Assembly: GCA_035454885.1 (NCBI GenBank)
Contig: DATIGE010000015.1
Coordinates: 1-64,000, forward strand
Source of the DNA: a bacterium
Lineage (GTDB): Bacteria; UBA10199; JACPAL01; GCA-016699445
Direction of reading: 5' to 3'
Length of the DNA: 64,000 bases
Part shown: positions 24,551-57,095 of the stretch, piece after piece
Position numbering within the stretch: position 1 is the first letter of the stretch
How the letters are laid out: each line of letters begins with the position of its first letter
The notes under the pieces: generated by a model
Database searches by the model: none
What the model saw: only the letters and a program-made list of their open reading frames with translations
Told to the model about the DNA's origin: nothing
Made by a program: the position numbers and the translations under genes

Positions 24551-25603
24551 ATGGCAAGTTATAGTTCCCTGTTCACCGGGGTCTTTCTCCGAGGGGTCGG
24601 TCTTTTTGGGACCGAGCGCCATTTGCTGACCCTCTTGGATGAAGGGTTGCCGGTCCTAGAAAAAGGGCTTCCTTCTTATTTGGATGTGGCAGCATCGCGG
24701 CGCTCTCTCCGTCACGGCGATGCCGCTCTATGGAGGGAAACCATTCACCGTTGGAGTGCCTTGCCCGTTGTCGTCAAGATCTTCCGGCCTCATATCGGAG
24801 ACTTCATTCGTTCCCTCGGTCTCCGGCAAGAGGCTCGAATTCTTAATGCTGCTTTGAAAGAGTCTCGCAACCCGCCTATTCACGTAAGTGACTTCCTGGT
24901 CCTTGAGGCCTTTCGATTGGCGGTCGAGGAATTTAAGCGATCGGGAAAAATTTCGACGGTTCCGATGGCCGCGATCGCCCGCAGGGCCCACGGAATCTTT
25001 CGCGAGGAGTTTTGCAAAGGGCCGGTTTGGCCGCCTTTCAATAAATTTCATAAGGCCATTTTGCCGGATCCCTCCGGGAACTCCCCCATCTTGAACCTTA
25101 TCCAAGAGGCCGGTGGATTTCCCAAAGGAGAAAGAAGCGACAAGGCAAAAGCCGTGGCCGCTTTCGAAGCGGCGATTCGCCAGTTGAGAGAGGAGGGCAC
25201 CTTGGACACAATAGGGCATACGGCCATCGCCGATCGCGCTCGCGATCTCTACAATCGTGATTTGCCCGCGCCGCTCGTTCTTTCGGACGGCACCTTCCAA
25301 GCATTTCTATGCAAAGATCCTGAGGTTCGCCGTCTCCTTGAAGAGTCGGGGGCAAGTCGATTGAATCAGCCCAGGCGCCCCGAGAGGATCGCACGGTCCT
25401 TCGAGGAGGCGATTGAAGAACTGAAACGAGCCGGAAGTCTGTCGTCGGCGACCTATGCAAAGATCGCCGCCAGGGCCTACGAGATCTATCGCCTGGGATC
25501 GTCGGGAGAGGATCTGATGCTGGCGGAGTTTTCCCGTGAAGCACTCTCGAGCACGAAGATCGGCAGGATGCTCCGCCAGGCGCAAGTCCGCATCAATTTA
25601 TAA
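24551..25603 (+). CDS. Unrecognised protein with three helical repeats
   Basis: 350 residues that I do not recognise. Three related segments are visible at about 117-190, 199-270 and 278-345. Each has a pattern F/x-x-A-hydrophobic-x-x-L-K/R-x-x-G-x-hydrophobic, then IA-x-R-A-x-x-hydrophobic-Y/F. Examples are FRLAVEEFKRSGKI with AIARRAHGIF, FEAAIRQLREEGTL with AIADRARDLY, and FEEAIEELKRAGSL with KIAARAYEIY. The pattern predicts pairs of amphipathic helices, each followed by a short variable part. No signal peptide, and a helical N-terminal region of about 110 residues. Base composition is visibly more AT-rich than trpD and trpC. It sits on the trp strand 38 bases after trpD, without a clear ribosome-binding site. 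Confidence 0.75.
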   Translation: MASYSSLFTGVFLRGVGLFGTERHLLTLLDEGLPVLEKGLPSYLDVAASRRSLRHGDAALWRETIHRWSALPVVVKIFRPHIGDFIRSLGLRQEARILNAALKESRNPPIHVSDFLVLEAFRLAVEEFKRSGKISTVPMAAIARRAHGIFREEFCKGPVWPPFNKFHKAILPDPSGNSPILNLIQEAGGFPKGERSDKAKAVAAFEAAIRQLREEGTLDTIGHTAIADRARDLYNRDLPAPLVLSDGTFQAFLCKDPEVRRLLEESGASRLNQPRRPERIARSFEEAIEELKRAGSLSSATYAKIAARAYEIYRLGSSGEDLMLAEFSREALSSTKIGRMLRQAQVRINL

Positions 25604-25978: not shown

Positions 25979-26548
25979 TTACCTAGAAATGATCTGATTT
26001 AACGTTTTGAGGTAGCCTTCCTTTTTGGCGAAGTCGGTGAGGTAGTCGAGGTCGATGCGTTTCTGATTTTTCATCCAAAGGAGTTTCGCCTGCTCGATCG
26101 ATCCTTGATGCTTCCATTCCACGCCGGCAATGATCCTATCCATGATGATGTCCTCGATCCGAATGATCTCCAGCGGGCCTTCGGGAGTCTCGATCACGTT
26201 GACCTTGGAGATCGTTCTGCTCCCGATTTCGATGGGGGAGGGCGGAAATTCGATCGAGAAATCGAAGACCGGATGACCGAATTGCCGGTAGTTCGACGTT
26301 CTTCTGAAACCGAGGGAATTCATGATCTCCTCGATCATTTCTTTGGTATCCCCTCTGAGAATCACATCGATGTCTTTCGTGAGATAGGTTCCCTGCGTAT
26401 AGAATTGAACCGTCGCTCCGCCGACTAAGATGAAATCCATGTTCTTGGCCCGAAAGAGCTTGGAGAGGAAAGCCGCGAGTGTGACTTGGCGAATAGTTTG
26501 CGGCAATTCGGCGATGATTTTCAGTTTTTGTTGATTCTTGCCGCTCAT
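25979..26548 (-). CDS. Nucleotidyltransferase-fold protein (AbiEii/MNT-like)
   Basis: 189 residues with the minimal nucleotidyltransferase signature: LVGGATVQFY (GG at 43-44) followed by TKDIDVIL with the paired aspartates D59 and D61. The C-terminal half is helical, with an acidic/aromatic IIRIEDIIMDRIIAG segment as in the DUF6036/AbiEii-like group. Its start overlaps the stop of the upstream helix-turn-helix gene by 4 bases (ATGA). Such HTH plus nucleotidyltransferase pairs behave as toxin-antitoxin or defence modules in some bacteria, where the toxin adds nucleotides to tRNA or protein. No activity is shown for this protein. Lower GC than its neighbours suggests transfer. Confidence 0.8.
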   Translation of the reverse strand: MSGKNQQKLKIIAELPQTIRQVTLAAFLSKLFRAKNMDFILVGGATVQFYTQGTYLTKDIDVILRGDTKEMIEEIMNSLGFRRTSNYRQFGHPVFDFSIEFPPSPIEIGSRTISKVNVIETPEGPLEIIRIEDIIMDRIIAGVEWKHQGSIEQAKLLWMKNQKRIDLDYLTDFAKKEGYLKTLNQIISR

Positions 26549-26979
26549 GTTCGGTTGATCCTCTTCAGAATCTTCTCCTCTTCATAAGAGCGGTGTTTTT
26601 TCCGTTTCTCCATGAGACGCGGGAGCATTTCCGGAGGAATCGGGGTTTTGCCGATTTCGCGCACCAAGTCTTCCATCCTATAGGTTTGGTTGACTTCGTA
26701 TTTTCTGTTTTGTTCCTTTCGATAAAGCGTCAGCAAATCGCGAATAGGGGGATACAGTCGGAAACGCTGATTTAACCGGAACGCCCTCTCGCTGCCCCGG
26801 CGGCTGGAGAACAGCATCCCCCAGCTTTCCAGGTTGCACAGTTCCCGGAACGACTCCTGAGGCGAGATCTTGAGTTCCCGGGCCAGTTCGCGGATGCCCA
26901 CCTGGGCGTCAGGGTTTCGGACGTAGTAATCCAGGACCAGGCGGCGGACCTTGGAAGGGATGAGGAAGCTCAAGTCCAT
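26545..26979 (-). CDS. Winged helix-turn-helix protein paired with nucleotidyltransferase
   Basis: 144 residues. The N-terminal half looks like a winged helix-turn-helix (VRRLVLDYYVRNPDAQ, then IRELARELKISPQESFRELC and a wing at FSSRRGSERAFRLN). The C-terminal half is basic and helical (LLTLYRKEQNRKYEVN, LMEKRKKHRSYEEEKIL). It is translationally coupled to the nucleotidyltransferase at 25979, the usual arrangement for an antitoxin or regulator. The divergent region to trpC holds repeated TGACA words that could be its operator. Family name not certain. Confidence 0.75.
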   Translation of the reverse strand: MDLSFLIPSKVRRLVLDYYVRNPDAQVGIRELARELKISPQESFRELCNLESWGMLFSSRRGSERAFRLNQRFRLYPPIRDLLTLYRKEQNRKYEVNQTYRMEDLVREIGKTPIPPEMLPRLMEKRKKHRSYEEEKILKRINRT

Positions 26980-27076: not shown

Positions 27077-27862
27077 ATGCTGCTCGACAAGATCGTCGAC
27101 TACAAGCGCCAGGAGCTGGAGGCCGTCCGGCGGAAGGTTTCGCTCAAGGACGTACGGGCCATGGCGGAAGACGCCGCGCCTAGACGCGGGTTCATCGATG
27201 CCGTGCTCAAACCAGGGATACGCATCATCGCCGAGGTGAAGAAGGCGTCGCCTTCCGCCGGCGTCATTCGTGCCGATTTTGATCCGATCAAGATTGCGGT
27301 GGCCTACGAGGAAAACGGCGCGGCCTGTCTCTCCATCCTCACCGATGAACATTTCTTTCAAGGAAGCCTGAAATCTCTGGCAGACATCCGTCGTTGCGTG
27401 AAAATTCCCCTCTTGAGGAAGGACTTCACGCTCGACGCATACCACGTCCACGAGGCCCGGGCGCACGGCGCCGACGCCATCCTCCTGATCGTCCGGATTC
27501 TCGAAGACGCGCAGATCAAGGACTACGCCGCCCTGGCGCAAGACCTCGGCATGGCGGCCTTGGTCGAGGTGCACGATGAGAAGGAGATGGAGCGGGCGAA
27601 AAGGGCCGGGGCGACCTTGATCGGTGTCAACAACCGCAATCTCGACACCCTCAAGGTGGACCTGCAGACGACCGTCCGTCTGGCTCCGCTCGCTCCGAAA
27701 GGGGCCGTCCTCGTGGGCGAGAGCGGGATTTCCGCTCCGGAACACGTGAGAAAATTGCGAGGCGTCGGCGTGAATGCGTTTCTGATTGGCGAATATTTTA
27801 TGAAGTCCTCCGATCCGGGGGCCGCGCTCGGAAATTTGCTGAAGTCCTCATCGACCGATTGA
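27077..27862 (+). CDS. trpC: Indole-3-glycerol phosphate synthase (TrpC)
   Basis: TIM-barrel enzyme that closes the indole ring from carboxyphenylamino-deoxyribulose phosphate. IIAEVKKASPSAG carries the catalytic Glu/Lys pair of strand 1, LRKDFTLDAYHVHEA the second catalytic Lys, VEVHDEKEMERA the strand-6 region, IGVNNRNLDTLKVD and LVGESGIS the phosphate-binding end. 261 residues. Monofunctional, not fused to TrpF. First gene of the second trp block. Confidence 0.96.
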   Translation: MLLDKIVDYKRQELEAVRRKVSLKDVRAMAEDAAPRRGFIDAVLKPGIRIIAEVKKASPSAGVIRADFDPIKIAVAYEENGAACLSILTDEHFFQGSLKSLADIRRCVKIPLLRKDFTLDAYHVHEARAHGADAILLIVRILEDAQIKDYAALAQDLGMAALVEVHDEKEMERAKRAGATLIGVNNRNLDTLKVDLQTTVRLAPLAPKGAVLVGESGISAPEHVRKLRGVGVNAFLIGEYFMKSSDPGAALGNLLKSSSTD

Positions 27863-27895
27863 TTTCTCGCAACCTCTGACGCGCCGCGACGAAGA

Positions 27896-29644
27896 ATGGC
27901 TTCGCTTATGGATGCCTCTTCGCTGACGCTTTCCCAGGCCGTTTCCACCCTTCAATTGGCCCTTCAGAACGCGGGACGGCTCGCGGACGTCGCGCCGCGG
28001 CTCGCCCAAACGGTTCGTGCCGCCGGGGAGCTGGAGGCTTGGGACCTTCCGGAGACGACCGTCCGAACGCTCGCTGCGATCCGGGACGGCGGCGTGTTGC
28101 AGGTGGGAGAGGCCTTGAGGTCGCTCGCCCTGCTTGGCGCGCGCGTCGGCGCCGGGGAGTCGGAGCTCGCGCGACTCGAAAAACGTGACGGCGCGTCCTC
28201 GCTTTCCCCCCTGGCGGCCGTGCGGGAGATTTTCTCGCCGCTCACGTTCACCCGCCCATCTCCGTCCCCGGGCTTCTGGGCCCGGATGGCGGATCCCACG
28301 GACGGCTTTTCGCCTTTCACGACGGAGGGGGGCACCCAGGTCGCCTTTTTCGCGAAGGCCCACGATCTCGGGTCCTTTTGGTCGGAGAGTCTCGATCGGC
28401 ATTGGGCCAACGGTCTGGGCCTTGCCGTCTTCCTGAACGATGAGGAGGGCGTCTGCGGCATGATCTTCGTTCACGGCGTGGGGCGCTCGCCTTGGAGCCG
28501 TCTCAAACGCAATCTCTGGCTCTCCTCCGGCGGGACGATGGCGTTCCGCGACGACCGGATGACGTTCGGCCAGGCGCTCAAGCGCGTGGTCGACAAGGGC
28601 GTGGCGATGACCCACAAGTGGCGCTCGATCGACGAGGCGCTCCACCAGGTGAAGCACGACACGCCGACCGGACTGGGAGGGTCCAAGGGCATTCTCCTGC
28701 ACCGAAACAACGGGCAGGGGTTCGCGAAGTCGTTGACGGTCTATGCGGACGTCCTGACAACGCTCGGCATCAGCCTCACGGGCAGCGACGAGGGCGTCGG
28801 CCCCGAGGCGGCGGACGCGCTCGCGAAGTTGGCGCCTTGGAATATCGTCGGGAGCAAGTTCGGCAATTATCGCGGCCATGCCCCCATCGGTCACACCGCC
28901 GCCGGGGTCTACAGCGCGCTGAGGAACGTCCACGAGGAATTCTTGGGAGGGACCGTGTCGCCGGTCCTGATCGTCGGATTCGGCGGCATCGGCTCGCTCC
29001 TGCATCAAAAACTCCGAAACGTCCGCGGCTCGCCGGTCGCCGGCGTCGTGGACATCGATCCCGGCAAACTGTGCGCGCTGAGGTCGGGCGGATTTCCGGC
29101 GCCGCTCTACCATGACGCCTCGGTCCGGATGCCGAACGTTTGGGAGTCGGTCCGCATGGCGTGGCACGGCATCCGGTCCGAAGCGGGCCTGGCGCCGATC
29201 GTGACGATGCTCCCCGAGGCCCGCATTCTTTCGCCCAACGGGGGGCCCCAACCGATCACGTTCGACGTCGCGGCGGCGATGATCATGAGCGGCGTCCGGG
29301 CCGTCGCGGGCGCCGCCAACAACCAGAACGCCTTCGACGCCCATGGCTCCCCGGATGCGATCGCCTGGATCCTGCAGGCGGCCGGCATTTTCCACGCCGC
29401 CGATTTCGCCGTGAACCGGATGGGTGCCGCCGCCGTCGTCGCCAACGCGATCGGTCTCGGGCATTTCGATCTGAGACGAATGGCGGACACGGTCGGAAGC
29501 AGCGTGAAAACCCAGATCGACTTCGCCTTCAGCCGCGGCGTGCCGCCTTTCGTCCATGAAAGACGCCGCGCCGAGCGCGCTTGGAACGACCTGCTCTCAT
29601 CGAGCCAGGCCATGGGCGGCCGATTCTCCGATGATCCCCGGTAG
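27896..29644 (+). CDS. Glu/Leu/Phe/Val dehydrogenase-family protein embedded in trp cluster
   Basis: 582 residues. The first 130 residues or so are a helical extension not usual in the family. Then comes an amino-acid dehydrogenase core: substrate Lys candidates K241 in MTHK (leucine dehydrogenase has MTYK) and K264 in GLGGSKG (compare GGGKA), with about 20 residues between them. LTGSDEGVGPEA is at the position of the EDVGT motif. A Rossmann motif LIVGFGGIGSL lies at about 358-368, followed by VVDID, and the conserved VAGAANNQ is present. The expected reaction is NAD(P)-dependent oxidative deamination of an amino acid or its reverse. Its place between trpC and trpF suggests an aromatic substrate; cyanobacterial ScyB is a leucine-dehydrogenase homologue that oxidises tryptophan. 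The substrate here is inference. Confidence 0.8.
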   Translation: MASLMDASSLTLSQAVSTLQLALQNAGRLADVAPRLAQTVRAAGELEAWDLPETTVRTLAAIRDGGVLQVGEALRSLALLGARVGAGESELARLEKRDGASSLSPLAAVREIFSPLTFTRPSPSPGFWARMADPTDGFSPFTTEGGTQVAFFAKAHDLGSFWSESLDRHWANGLGLAVFLNDEEGVCGMIFVHGVGRSPWSRLKRNLWLSSGGTMAFRDDRMTFGQALKRVVDKGVAMTHKWRSIDEALHQVKHDTPTGLGGSKGILLHRNNGQGFAKSLTVYADVLTTLGISLTGSDEGVGPEAADALAKLAPWNIVGSKFGNYRGHAPIGHTAAGVYSALRNVHEEFLGGTVSPVLIVGFGGIGSLLHQKLRNVRGSPVAGVVDIDPGKLCALRSGGFPAPLYHDASVRMPNVWESVRMAWHGIRSEAGLAPIVTMLPEARILSPNGGPQPITFDVAAAMIMSGVRAVAGAANNQNAFDAHGSPDAIAWILQAAGIFHAADFAVNRMGAAAVVANAIGLGHFDLRRMADTVGSSVKTQIDFAFSRGVPPFVHERRRAERAWNDLLSSSQAMGGRFSDDPR

Positions 29645-29693
29645 CGTTCCCGTCCTTTACATCTCGTTTTTCTTTGAGCTATTTTAGCCCGTC

Positions 29694-30308
29694 ATGCTCG
29701 TGAAGATCTGCGGCATTACGAACATCGAGGATGCGTTGGCCGCCGTTGAGTTCGGTGCCGACGCCCTGGGGTTTAATTTTTACGCAAAGAGTCCGCGCCA
29801 CGTCTCGTTCGAGAGGGCACAGAAGATTCTGGAGGACGTCCCGCCGACCGTTTTGAAGGTCGGCGTGTTTGTGAACGAATCCGAGCGGACCGTGAAAGAC
29901 CTTTCCGTCGCCCTCGAGCTCGATTATCTCCAGTTTCACGGGGACGAGACGCCGTCGTATTGCGAGCAGTTCGCGGCCCCTTACTGGAAGGCGTTCCGCT
30001 TGAAGGATGAAAAGACCATCGAGCTCATGAAAAAATACAGGTGCGAGTATTATCTGGTCGACACCTTCATCGCGCAGTCCTACGGAGGCACGGGCGTGAC
30101 GGGAAACTGGGACCTCACCCGCGAGGCGAAACAAGTCGGCAAGATCATCCTGGCCGGGGGCTTGACCCCCGAGAACGTGGCCGACGCGATCCGAACCGTC
30201 GGTCCGGACGGAGTGGACGTGGCGAGCGGAGTGGAGGAAAAACCGGGACGCAAGTCCGCCGCCAAAATCGAGCGGTTCATCTCCAACGCGAGAGAGGCGC
30301 TCCCGTGA
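29694..30308 (+). CDS. trpF: Phosphoribosylanthranilate isomerase (TrpF)
   Basis: TIM-barrel isomerase for the Amadori rearrangement in tryptophan synthesis. [12 protein letters not shown] carries the catalytic Cys; [25 protein letters not shown] and the catalytic Asp in LVDTF follow; [11 protein letters not shown] and [16 protein letters not shown] form the phosphate site. 204 residues. Its stop overlaps the GTG start of trpB (GTGA). Confidence 0.96.
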
Positions 30309-44916: not shown

Positions 44917-45321
44917 ATGGAACGAAAACTGCGCATTTTAGTCGCCAAACCCGGCCTCGACGGCCACGACCGCGGGGCCAAGATCATCGCCCGCGCCCTG
45001 CGGGACGCCGGCTTCGAAGTCATATACACGGGACTCCATCAGACGCCCGAGATGATCGTCGACGCCGCCTTGCAGGAGGACGTGGATTGCGTCTCGCTCT
45101 CCATCCTCTCGGGGGCCCACAACCACCTCTTTCCCGAGGTGATCCGGCAGCTGAAGGCAAAGAAAATGGACGACGTGACCGTGATCGGCGGCGGGATCAT
45201 CCCCCAGGAGGACATCCCGGGGCTCAAGAAAGCGGGCGTCAAGGAGATCTTCCTGCCCGGCACCGATACCAGGGACGTGGTCGCTTGGATTCATCAGAAC
45301 GTGAAGCCTAGGAAGTTGTAA
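44917..45321 (+). CDS. Methylmalonyl-CoA mutase, cobalamin-binding (small) subunit
   Basis: 134-residue flavodoxin-like B12-binding domain. The base-off motif DxHxxG is LDGHDRGAK (D15, H17, G20), followed by the Ser-rich [12 protein letters not shown] and [11 protein letters not shown], which hold the nucleotide tail. It begins one base after the large subunit stop, so the two form one enzyme. The 3' end overlaps the convergent gene at 45308 by 14 bases. Confidence 0.94.
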
Positions 45322-46417
45322 GGGCGAGCGTGCCTCGCCTTCTCGGAAGGACCCACCAGGACTCGTCGCCTACGCCGCAAAAACCCAGGGACCTGGCGAT
45401 ATCATCCAATCGTCGGATGGTCGTTGAAAGACGGGAGGCCTCCTCGCTGGGAGAGTGCATCACCCGCTCCCGGAGGGCTTGAAAGGAAAGCAGGCCGGCC
45501 CCCCCGAAGAGACAGGAGGGAAGGGCGTCGGGATCCGCGACGTGTCCGTAGAGGGGTGCCCGCCTTTCGGCCCTCAGCCAGTAAATCGGAGGATCCCCAT
45601 AATCGCGACGCAGGGAGCGGATGACCTCTTCGACCAGCCAGGCGCGTGGGTCAGGGCCGAACCGTTTCTGGGTTAATTTCAGGAGGTCGGTTTTCCGCCC
45701 GTTCCGGTCGATCTTGATCTCGGTCAGGCGCGACCCTCCCTGAGTCAATGTGATCCCAAAACCGTCGCGGCGGCGAACGACGCCCACCACGGCCAAGAGG
45801 ATATTCCGGAGCTCGCCCGAATCATCCGTCCCTTCCCAATGGAGCCGGAAATCGACTCCCGCCACCGTTTCATGGCTGCCGGGGCTCAAATGGACGTGAA
45901 ACTCCCTCCCGATTTCGTAACGGATCGGTGCATCGAAGTCCCCCTCGCGCCAATTGGCAGCGACGCGGGGGCCCCATTTTTCCCGGAGGAGTCTTAATCC
46001 CTCCAGGTGGCCCAGGACGCTTTCTTCGGGCGTCGCAATCTGGGGGTAGGCGGTGTGGCTGGTTGCGTAGGGGATCGCGTCCCACAGAATTCTCAAAGAT
46101 TGGATGGAACCGTAATCCTCGGAGCAGACAAAGCGGTCGATGACGCCCTGCAGGGCCTGGACGCCCTCGCGCTCCAAACGGGCCCCGTTCCGGGCCCAGG
46201 TATCCGCGGCGTCCTGGGCGATCCGTCGTGAAAGCTCGCCGACCCCAGGCCGCCAGAAAGCGGCGGATGCGTTCAGCGAGGCCCGAAGCTCCGCCTGCAC
46301 CGCCGGGTTGTAGAGAAATCCGTCGATGGCCGCGTGCAGGCGCTCATAGGTGAGCGGTTGGAACGGACGCGCCGTCCAAGGCAACGTCGAGCCCATGGGG
46401 GTGACGGACAGGGTCAT
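45308..46417 (-). CDS. Unrecognised protein
   Basis: 369 residues that I cannot assign. No signal peptide or transmembrane segment. The N-terminus is Ser/Thr/Pro-rich ([14 protein letters not shown]), followed by a helical region (to about 150) and a beta-rich region around 160-260 ([28 protein letters not shown]). It lies downstream of a crotonase gene on the same strand with a 53-base gap. Its N-terminus resembles in style those of the orphan proteins at 54886 and 56085, but I see no convincing homology among them. Confidence 0.7.
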
Positions 46418-54885: not shown

Positions 54886-55989
54886 ATGGCTGTCATCACT
54901 CCATCCCTGTCCGCCTGGACCTTGTCCGCGCAGCCGGCCCTCGTGCAAGACTTGGGGTTTTCCTTCCTTGCCGGCTTACGGGGGGGACTGCCCCACACGC
55001 CCTATCTTTCCGAGGAGACGCGACAGGGCATCGACAACCTCCTGCGGCGTGAGGCGCCGGTCCGTCAGATCGGCGACGCCCTCATGATCTCCCTGGCCTC
55101 GGAGTGGGCGAAACACCAGACCGCCGTTTTCGGGTCAGAGAGGGTCAGCTGCGTTTGGCATGGCGCGGAGAGACTCTTCCAGCCTCTCACGGCCGATGCG
55201 CCGGCGCCGTCGTTTTCCGATTTTGAATCCAAGAAGGCGCGTTACCTGGAGGACTTCGGCCATCTCGATCTGATGGCCCGCGCCATTCTCGAGGTGCGGT
55301 TTCCGACCGAAGCGCTCGCCGGCACCCCATTCGACCTGCTGCAGGAGGATTTCGCCTATCTGGATGATGCGGTCCGTCCTCTGGGTTTCTTTCCCTGCAC
55401 CCGTCTGGACCGTGGAGAAGGTCAGGAAGAATCGGTCTTCCGGTTTTTTTCGCTTTCGGCGCTGGAATTGGGGCTCTACGTCTTTTTGGGCACGTCGGCC
55501 CCGCGTTTTTGCCTGGGGCCGGGAAGCTCCTCTCCTCGAAAATTCAACGACGTGCACAAGGCCGGCTATCATCTCGTGGGGGCGCCGGTCGACCGGCGCA
55601 AGGTCCATGGAGTCTGGACCCCGCCCCTCAGTTACATCTGGCACGGCATCTGTCATGGGGCCTTCTGGGCGACGCACGAATCCCCCGTCGAGCGGTTGGC
55701 CGCGACCCTGTTGTACGAGTCGGCGATGCGGACGATGAACGGCGAGCGGAAACTCGACGCCGTCGCCCTCCAGATGGGGCACCTCCTCGAACTCGAGTTA
55801 TCCACGAACGGGGGCGTTTGGGGCATCCTCAACGGCCTAAAGGAGGCCCTTGAGCCCCGGCGCTTTCATGCCCTTGCCAGGGACTACGACCGGCGGCTCG
55901 AAGCGATTCCGGAGGGTCTTCCGGACGACGGCTACGCCGCAACCCTGAGGAATAAGATCACAACTTTGGCATCCGCCGCACGATACTGA
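54886..55989 (+). CDS. Unrecognised protein
   Basis: 367 residues, no family recognised. N-terminus MAVITPSLSAWTLSAQPA is Ser/Thr/Pro-rich, without an obvious signal peptide. The middle has several Trp/His/Cys residues (VSCVWHGAERLF, YIWHGICHGAFWATHE) that could be catalytic or metal-binding; the C-terminal third is helical (MGHLLELELSTNGG, EALEPRRFHALARDYDRRLE). The start is uncertain: GGGG lies nine bases before this ATG, and an AAGGAG-led ATG at 54866 opens a different frame with implausible composition. Preceded by a 109-base gap. Confidence 0.72.
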   Translation: MAVITPSLSAWTLSAQPALVQDLGFSFLAGLRGGLPHTPYLSEETRQGIDNLLRREAPVRQIGDALMISLASEWAKHQTAVFGSERVSCVWHGAERLFQPLTADAPAPSFSDFESKKARYLEDFGHLDLMARAILEVRFPTEALAGTPFDLLQEDFAYLDDAVRPLGFFPCTRLDRGEGQEESVFRFFSLSALELGLYVFLGTSAPRFCLGPGSSSPRKFNDVHKAGYHLVGAPVDRRKVHGVWTPPLSYIWHGICHGAFWATHESPVERLAATLLYESAMRTMNGERKLDAVALQMGHLLELELSTNGGVWGILNGLKEALEPRRFHALARDYDRRLEAIPEGLPDDGYAATLRNKITTLASAARY

Positions 55990-56053: not shown

Positions 56054-56084
56054 CGTAATCCCGCCGCTTTTGAAAGATACTTGT

Positions 56085-57095
56085 ATGACCGTGACTTCAG
56101 CCATGTTGCCGGGGCTGCTTTCCCGCACCGGACCTTCGCTTTTTTCGCCGGCGATGGTCTACGAGCGGACGGACGTCCGTTACTTCAGCACGAGCACCTT
56201 TCTGGATGCCTTTCTGCCGGACCCGTTCACCGGATCGGTACGGATGCCGCATTTGGCGGAAGAGACGCCGGGGGTGCCCTTCGGCGCGCAGATGTCGGTG
56301 CGTCTCCTGGGGCCCGAACGGGTCGAGGAGGCGCGGACAACGGTCAAGGCCCTGATGGAGGACGCGGGCCGGATCGCGCGGGAAGGGGAGAATTGGGGTC
56401 ACTCGATACCATTGCCGCTCACGGCCACGGAAGGCTTGTGGTCCCTTGAGGAACGCCTCGAGGACCAAGACGAGATCAGAATCACCCTGAACAAACGCGG
56501 CGGTGCCTTTCGCCGTCTTACGTTGAGGTCGGATGGGGGATTCGATCTGTCCGCCGGATGGCGCGCCGCAGTGGCTCAGGTCGCTCAAGCGGTTTCCGTC
56601 GATGCCGGCGGTCGTACGGAAACGAGCAGCTTCCACGTCGAATTTTCGGGTCCCTCCGTGGAGAAGCTAAGGACCTTCCTGAAGATGGACGGCCGGCCCG
56701 AACAGGAAGCGGTGTTGGAACTTGCCGCCCGGATTTACGCCTCGGGTCAATACGCCGAGGAGGACATGGGAGGCGGCCTTCAATTGTTGGGGCAAGGAGA
56801 GGGTGAATGGCAGGATCTCCTTTCTTTCGACGGGCGCTGGCATTTGCCCCAGGGGCTGTCGGTGGAGAAGGTGAACCCCTTCCTCGTCGGCACCACGGGT
56901 TCGTTGCCGGAATTGGATGAGGTGGACCAGCGCGTCGCGCTGGCCGATGTCTTTTGGGAATCGGTCCCTGACTGGGGGCATCTGGTCGTCCACTTAAATA
57001 ACCTCCCCGGCCGAGGGCTGATGCCCCTGGTCCCTTCCCTTCGCGAAACGCTCTGGGAGGGGGCCCTCCGTCTCCTCCACGGCCAAGCCGGTTGA
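56085..57095 (+). CDS. Unrecognised protein
   Basis: 336 residues from the ATG at 56085 (a TTG at 56070 would add five). No recognised family. N-terminus MTVTSAMLPGLLSRTG resembles in style those of the orphan proteins at 45308 and 54886. A beta-rich centre (EIRITLNKRGGAFRRLTLRS, SFHVEFSGPSVEKL) and an acidic C-terminal part (LPELDEVDQRVALADVFWES) follow. No signal peptide, no transmembrane helix. It may be an intracellular or secreted orphan. Confidence 0.68.
   Translation: MTVTSAMLPGLLSRTGPSLFSPAMVYERTDVRYFSTSTFLDAFLPDPFTGSVRMPHLAEETPGVPFGAQMSVRLLGPERVEEARTTVKALMEDAGRIAREGENWGHSIPLPLTATEGLWSLEERLEDQDEIRITLNKRGGAFRRLTLRSDGGFDLSAGWRAAVAQVAQAVSVDAGGRTETSSFHVEFSGPSVEKLRTFLKMDGRPEQEAVLELAARIYASGQYAEEDMGGGLQLLGQGEGEWQDLLSFDGRWHLPQGLSVEKVNPFLVGTTGSLPELDEVDQRVALADVFWESVPDWGHLVVHLNNLPGRGLMPLVPSLRETLWEGALRLLHGQAG

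Follow-up and report, generated by a model that had tools for sequence, protein, structure and literature searches.

A deep branch of putative ELFV-type amino-acid dehydrogenases in an uncultured bacterial phylum, with one member gene between trpC and trpF

Dehydrogenases of the Glu/Leu/Phe/Val (ELFV) type are textbook enzymes and industrial biocatalysts. In leucine dehydrogenase (LeuDH), following established knowledge of this enzyme and of glutamate dehydrogenase (GDH), we take K68 to be the substrate-binding lysine and K80 and D115 to be catalytic. An aspartate of the LeuDH D203 type is assumed, as general family knowledge, to predict NAD over NADP, and the lysine found in GDH at the LeuDH-40 position binds the gamma-carboxylate. 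Nothing direct on the residue basis of Leu/Phe specificity was found in the open-access literature. For the tryptophan dehydrogenase (TrpDH) ScyB, a genomic association with tryptophan synthesis is documented, scyB being accompanied in the scytonemin cluster by an extra, full trp gene set (PMC2726228). Here, we describe a gene for an ELFV-type protein located inside the trp operon of a bacterium from an uncultured phylum. The stretch of DNA analyzed, 64,000 nucleotides long, is referred to as the window.

The gene and its setting in the trp operon

The cluster in the window has the order trpE-G-D-(inserts)-C-[582-aa gene]-F-B-A. The gene under study, its direct neighbors and the other inserts are as follows:

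24551-25603, +: 350-aa protein of a multi-copy family, between trpD and trpC (GC3-GC2 bias low, 0.15)
25979-26979, -: nucleotidyltransferase and small helix-turn-helix-like pair, same operon (weak PF19502/PF09970 matches)
27077-27862, +: trpC, indole-3-glycerol phosphate synthase, upstream neighbor (PF00218, E=6.5e-90)
27896-29644, +: ELFV-type amino-acid dehydrogenase gene, 582 aa, ATG start (assigned by ORF, profile, residues and fold)
29694-30308, +: trpF, downstream neighbor (PF00697, E=1.5e-47)

The 582-aa ORF is a real gene; its coding-strand GC3-GC2 bias (0.33) is similar to that of neighboring genes, and a 569-aa antisense ORF at 27848-29557 was not picked by the same bias criterion. 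The gaps to trpC and trpF are 34 nt and 50 nt, respectively, with all three genes on the same strand, and this tight spacing would allow real co-regulation with trp. A promoter-like sequence, TTTACA-18-TATTTT (window 29656-29694), ends 8 nt upstream of the trpF start. No clear ribosome-binding site is present, and as a consensus match only the sequence might represent an own, leaderless transcription restart of trpFBA.

The trp operon of the window carries another lineage-specific insertion, between trpD and trpC. The 350-aa protein encoded there consists of about three helical repeats of ~45 residues and has five more matches in its own genome as well as weak relatives in three others. A helix-turn-helix-like and nucleotidyltransferase pair similar to that of the operon (L017:10941-11835) adjoins the same-genome paralogue of the 582-aa protein, located on contig C47. 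Just downstream of the window, a 923-aa protein (L026:8121-10892) combines an FHA domain with a domain of the HopA1 effector family.

Superfamily membership, active site and insertions

A previous interpretation of this DNA from its letters (the sequence-only reading) had placed an ELFV-type core between trpC and trpF, and its four motifs, MTHK, GLGGSKG, GFGGIG and AGAANNQ, were all found at 27896-29644, where they align with LeuDH K68, K80, the Rossmann loop and N262. The window protein scores 14.3 bits against PF00208, below the gathering cut-off of 23.4 bits, and matches no NCBIfam family; the C47 paralogue, 37% identical to it, scores above this cut-off (28.1 and 26.4 bits). A profile built from seven family members matches solved LeuDH with E=1e-17, Pseudomonas LeuDH with 2e-14, TrpDH 5b37 with 1.5e-13 and GDH with 1e-3. 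AlphaFold models (with four sequences) reached a mean pLDDT of 61-63, with parts of both domains at 70-90 and the C-terminal part low, so that the domains are usable and their mutual arrangement is not reliable. From a model of this modest confidence, Foldseek recovered the ELFV fold, the best matches being LeuDH, PheDH (phenylalanine dehydrogenase) and TrpDH (E 3e-13 to 1e-10) and GDH being weaker (1e-7). LeuDH was matched with E down to 3e-13 and probability 1.00, and with a TM of at most ~0.57 because the domains are misplaced in the model. Profile and fold therefore support a position of the window protein nearer the LeuDH/PheDH/TrpDH group than GDH, while its identity to LeuDH, TrpDH and GDH is 16-23%, an about equal distance (~20%).

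Residues were mapped onto LeuDH 1leh numbering. Apart from the N-terminal extension, all of the following rest on alignment:

27896-28207, +: private N-terminal extension, residues 1-104, Ala/Leu-rich, predicted helical at low confidence
28208-28333, +: family-wide pre-core segment, residues 105-146, ..LF....F......NPADGFxPF
28526-28534, +: Ser-Gly-Gly 211-213, equivalent to LeuDH L40-G41-G42, Ser replacing Leu
28607-28618, +: MTHK 238-241, K241 equivalent to LeuDH K68
28619-28684, +: 22-residue linker K241-K264, holding the family-wide 11-residue insertion
28676-28687, +: GGSK 261-264, K264 equivalent to LeuDH K80
28781-28789, +: Gly296-Ser297-Asp298, D298 equivalent to LeuDH D115, G296 at the A113 position
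28976-28993, +: Rossmann loop GFGGIG 361-366
29051-29053, +: Asp386, equivalent to LeuDH D203
29315-29323, +: Ala474-Asn475-Asn476, N476 equivalent to LeuDH N262

In addition, N507 corresponds to LeuDH N287. All eight family members retain the equivalents of LeuDH K68, K80, D115, N262, N287, G41/G42 and D203; in one of them, G003:C16, the MTxK stretch has a small deletion that spares the lysine. Both GxGxxG (GFGGIG 361-366) and the acidic residue after strand 2 (D386) are present. From the retention of all catalytic positions we infer a probably active, NAD-dependent L-amino-acid dehydrogenase that would not be glutamate-specific.

The substrate side-chain pocket differs from that of LeuDH. 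At the L40 position, Ser occurs in the window protein and in its nearest homologue (G003:C30) and Leu in the remaining members, with Met in TrpDH and Lys in GDH (all eight GDH-like references). The A113 position is Gly throughout the family, as in TrpDH 5b37, the V291 position is Ala throughout (Ala511 in the window protein), and the window protein keeps Val at the V294 position (Val514). The LeuDH pocket of L40, A113, V291 and V294 is not matched by S, G, A and V in the window protein, and of the TrpDH pocket M40, G113 and L291 one residue of three is matched (S211, G296, A511). The resulting set of Ser211, Gly296, Ala511 and Val514 matches no dehydrogenase class compared, and these positions suggest a side-chain pocket wider and more polar than that of LeuDH. 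Moreover, the 'PCALG' motif of LeuDH is replaced by 'SPNAGPHPI'.

Two structural additions had been pointed out previously. The proposed insertion between the lysines is confirmed, with 22 intervening residues in the window protein compared to 11 in 23 of 24 references, and it is common to the whole family (seven of the eight members have 21-22 residues, the remaining one 17); being family-wide, it is no peculiarity of the trp-located copy. The proposed 130-residue N-terminal helical domain is confirmed as an extra domain, helical by a low-confidence prediction, but not in its length: the private part is nearer 100 residues, because ~40 residues before the core are family-wide. Within the 46-genome set of the class, no homologue of residues 1-104 better than E=0.0026 was found in other genomes. 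The two G003 members show a weak, borderline similarity in their N-termini (~2% of shuffles reach it), and the N-terminus of the window protein contains no known DNA-binding family at E<=1 in Pfam.

Three lineage-specific proteins of the window without a Pfam family (45308-46417, 54886-55989 and 56070-57095) have similar Ala/Ser/Pro/Leu-rich N-termini. Such N-termini also occur on family members and on a second, unusual GDH-like protein of the genome (527 aa; L129:6534-8117, G000:C38), and they might represent a shared targeting signal. This GDH-like protein has 25 residues between the lysines, an independent insertion.

Distribution of the family and its linkage to trp genes

Eight full or near-full family members were identified in six of 46 genomes of the class, a set that is also the entire phylum sample and in which the genus and family of the window genome have no other representative. 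Two members each are encoded in the window genome (G000) and in G003, and one each in G013, G017, G012 and G033, the last split over two contig ends; a seventh genome (G006) contains a fragment, which comes from a partly masked record. Outside the class, no member was found in the other 339 genomes of a sample of 385 across the domain, the one match (G223) scoring like an ordinary LeuDH-type protein. A tblastn search of plasmids gave no family match. In a contig collection of 84,980 species, a single-protein scan gave no match, two degenerate patterns, which would miss some known members, retrieved no further members, and the subfamily alignment retrieved three loci, all of them members already known; the records with names in this collection are metagenome bins that carry the labels Deltaproteobacteria or Nitrospira.

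In a tree of the eight members and 24 reference dehydrogenases, the members form one branch (support 100/100), its stem 3.37 changes per site long; their mutual identity is only 23-44%. The window protein pairs with G003:C30 (support 99/96), and TrpDH 5b37 falls among LeuDH-like rows, outside the family branch. Judged by this tree and these searches, the family is a deep, well-supported, previously undescribed ELFV branch, seen in one uncultured bacterial phylum only. The C47 paralogue and G003:C16 have common surroundings of apbE-, mltG-, yqgF- and gyrA-like genes (names assigned by eye, based on translations), so the C47 copy is regarded as the positional orthologue. The G012 member forms the C-terminal half of a 1334-aa protein (L024:2900-6904, G012:C13), the first ~560 residues of which match no Pfam family.

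The sequence-only reading had seen in the gene a possible tryptophan- or anthranilate-linked dehydrogenase and had itself proposed a survey of its gene neighborhoods. This survey found no trp linkage in relatives: trpC was located in 18 genomes of the class besides that of the window. None of them carries a family gene at this locus, and in 13 of the 18 trpF directly follows trpC, the gap reaching ~175 nt at most. The five further genomes that encode members have them away from those trp genes that could be located. The trp operon of G003, the nearest relative having family members, is split after trpC; its trpFBA genes are on a separate contig without a family member, and G003:C30 adjoins an L-asparaginase II gene (PF06089, 1.3e-50). 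In G012, trpD-C-F-B-A is intact and the family member is encoded elsewhere in the genome. Together with the lack of a tree grouping with TrpDH/ScyB, these observations do not bear out the proposed link. The trp position is unique to this genome among those compared and gives little reason to infer Trp as the substrate. Since trp linkage is lacking in relatives and the operon shows another intrusion, the simplest reading is a lineage-specific insertion.

Directly upstream of trpE, G003 encodes a 1002-aa E1-type 2-oxo-acid dehydrogenase (L079:3719-6727, G003:C18) with an N-terminal extension of ~370 residues. A route from amino acid to 2-oxo acid via this protein was considered and rejected; it has one clear near-full-length homologue only (38%, in G015) and none beside the window gene.

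Proposed activity and relation to known dehydrogenases

The window protein is probably an NAD-dependent L-amino-acid dehydrogenase that is catalytically competent and belongs to a new ELFV subfamily restricted to this phylum, with its trp position a lineage-specific insertion. Of the sequence-only reading, this retains the new ELFV-type dehydrogenase with intact catalytic residues and drops the tryptophan link. Following the standard mechanism of ELFV enzymes, it would carry out the oxidative deamination, or the reductive formation, of an L-amino acid other than glutamate. The carboxylate would be held by K241 and the Gly-Gly loop, K264 and D298 would activate water and amine, N476 would orient the substrate, and hydride would be transferred to NAD bound by the Rossmann domain with GFGGIG and D386. 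Any co-transcription with trp would be a by-product of location. Trp, Phe or Tyr are conceivable substrates because the pocket is probably wide, and nothing specific to the trp-located copy points to them.

A function in the service of the trp operon as a dehydrogenase specific for tryptophan or aromatic amino acids, converting Trp to indole-3-pyruvate or trimming excess Trp in the manner of ScyB, is unlikely for this protein. Such a role is suggested by the same-strand position between trpC and trpF with short gaps, by the Gly shared with TrpDH 5b37 at the A113 position and a predicted wider pocket, by TrpDH ranking among the best profile and fold matches, and by the full trp set that accompanies ScyB (PMC2726228). 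However, Gly296 and Ala511 are family-wide, also in members without a trp link; the tree does not unite the clade with TrpDH; none of the 18 other trpC loci shows the linkage; trpC and trpB are single-copy in the window genome, in contrast to the duplicated set that accompanies scyB; and a search for an indolepyruvate oxidoreductase alpha subunit gave no match over cut-off.

The long stem, the family-wide 11-residue insert beside the active site, the family-wide Gly/Ala pocket positions, the replaced 'PCALG' motif and the separate presence of a standard GDH in the genome would also fit an ELFV scaffold recruited to a different substrate class, for instance a modified, beta- or D-amino acid or an amine. 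This is nevertheless very improbable: the unchanged residues for the alpha-carboxylate and alpha-amine (K68, K80, D115, G41/G42 and N262) speak for an ordinary L-alpha-amino acid. A wider proposal, that the clade is a functionally new class with a substrate unlike those of Leu, Phe, Trp and Glu dehydrogenases, its insert part of a new pocket and one copy captured by the trp operon for a Trp-pathway metabolite, appears distinctly unlikely. The idea of a regulator (raised by the sequence-only reading) or pseudoenzyme, in which the ELFV fold would sense an amino acid or NADH and control the trp enzymes through the helical N-terminus as effector domain, draws on that private extension, on Ser for Leu in the pocket and on the location in the operon. 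It is very unlikely, because every catalytic position is conserved among distant relatives that are only 23-44% identical, and the N-terminus shows none of the known DNA-binding families at the threshold given above.

With its catalytic set intact and its pocket new, this deep extra ELFV branch makes a useful assay target. It also illustrates that, in an uncultured phylum, an operon neighbor seen in a single genome says little about function, and that linkage needs testing in relatives.

Among described enzymes, GDH, such as that encoded on contig C21 of the same genome, shares with the window protein the catalytic Lys/Lys/Asp and the PF00208 domain, the latter scoring below cut-off in the window protein, but differs in its Lys at position 40 (Ser here), in Asn-Gly where the window protein has Asn-Asn, in weaker profile and fold matches and in its separate branch. 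PheDH from Rhodococcus (1bxg/1c1d) is the top Foldseek match of the full-length model (2e-11), at 19-21% identity. TrpDH/ScyB of Nostoc punctiforme (5b37) agrees in the catalytic set, in Gly at position 113 and in trp neighbors; in contrast, it is 22% identical, forms no joint clade, and has M40 and L291 where the window protein has S and A, and at the window locus there is neither a duplicated trp set nor conserved linkage, nor was a ScyA-type partner seen near the gene. LeuDH (1leh, 6acf, 8gxd, 7vid) is 20-23% identical and differs by the absence of the 11-residue insert between the lysines, by L40, A113 and V291 in place of S, G and A, and by lacking both the ~40-residue family-wide pre-core segment and the 104-residue private N-terminus. 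It shares the Lys/Lys/Asp/Asn set, the Gly-Gly loop, GxGxxG, the Asp203-type cofactor site and AANNQ, and gives the best profile and fold matches of the family.
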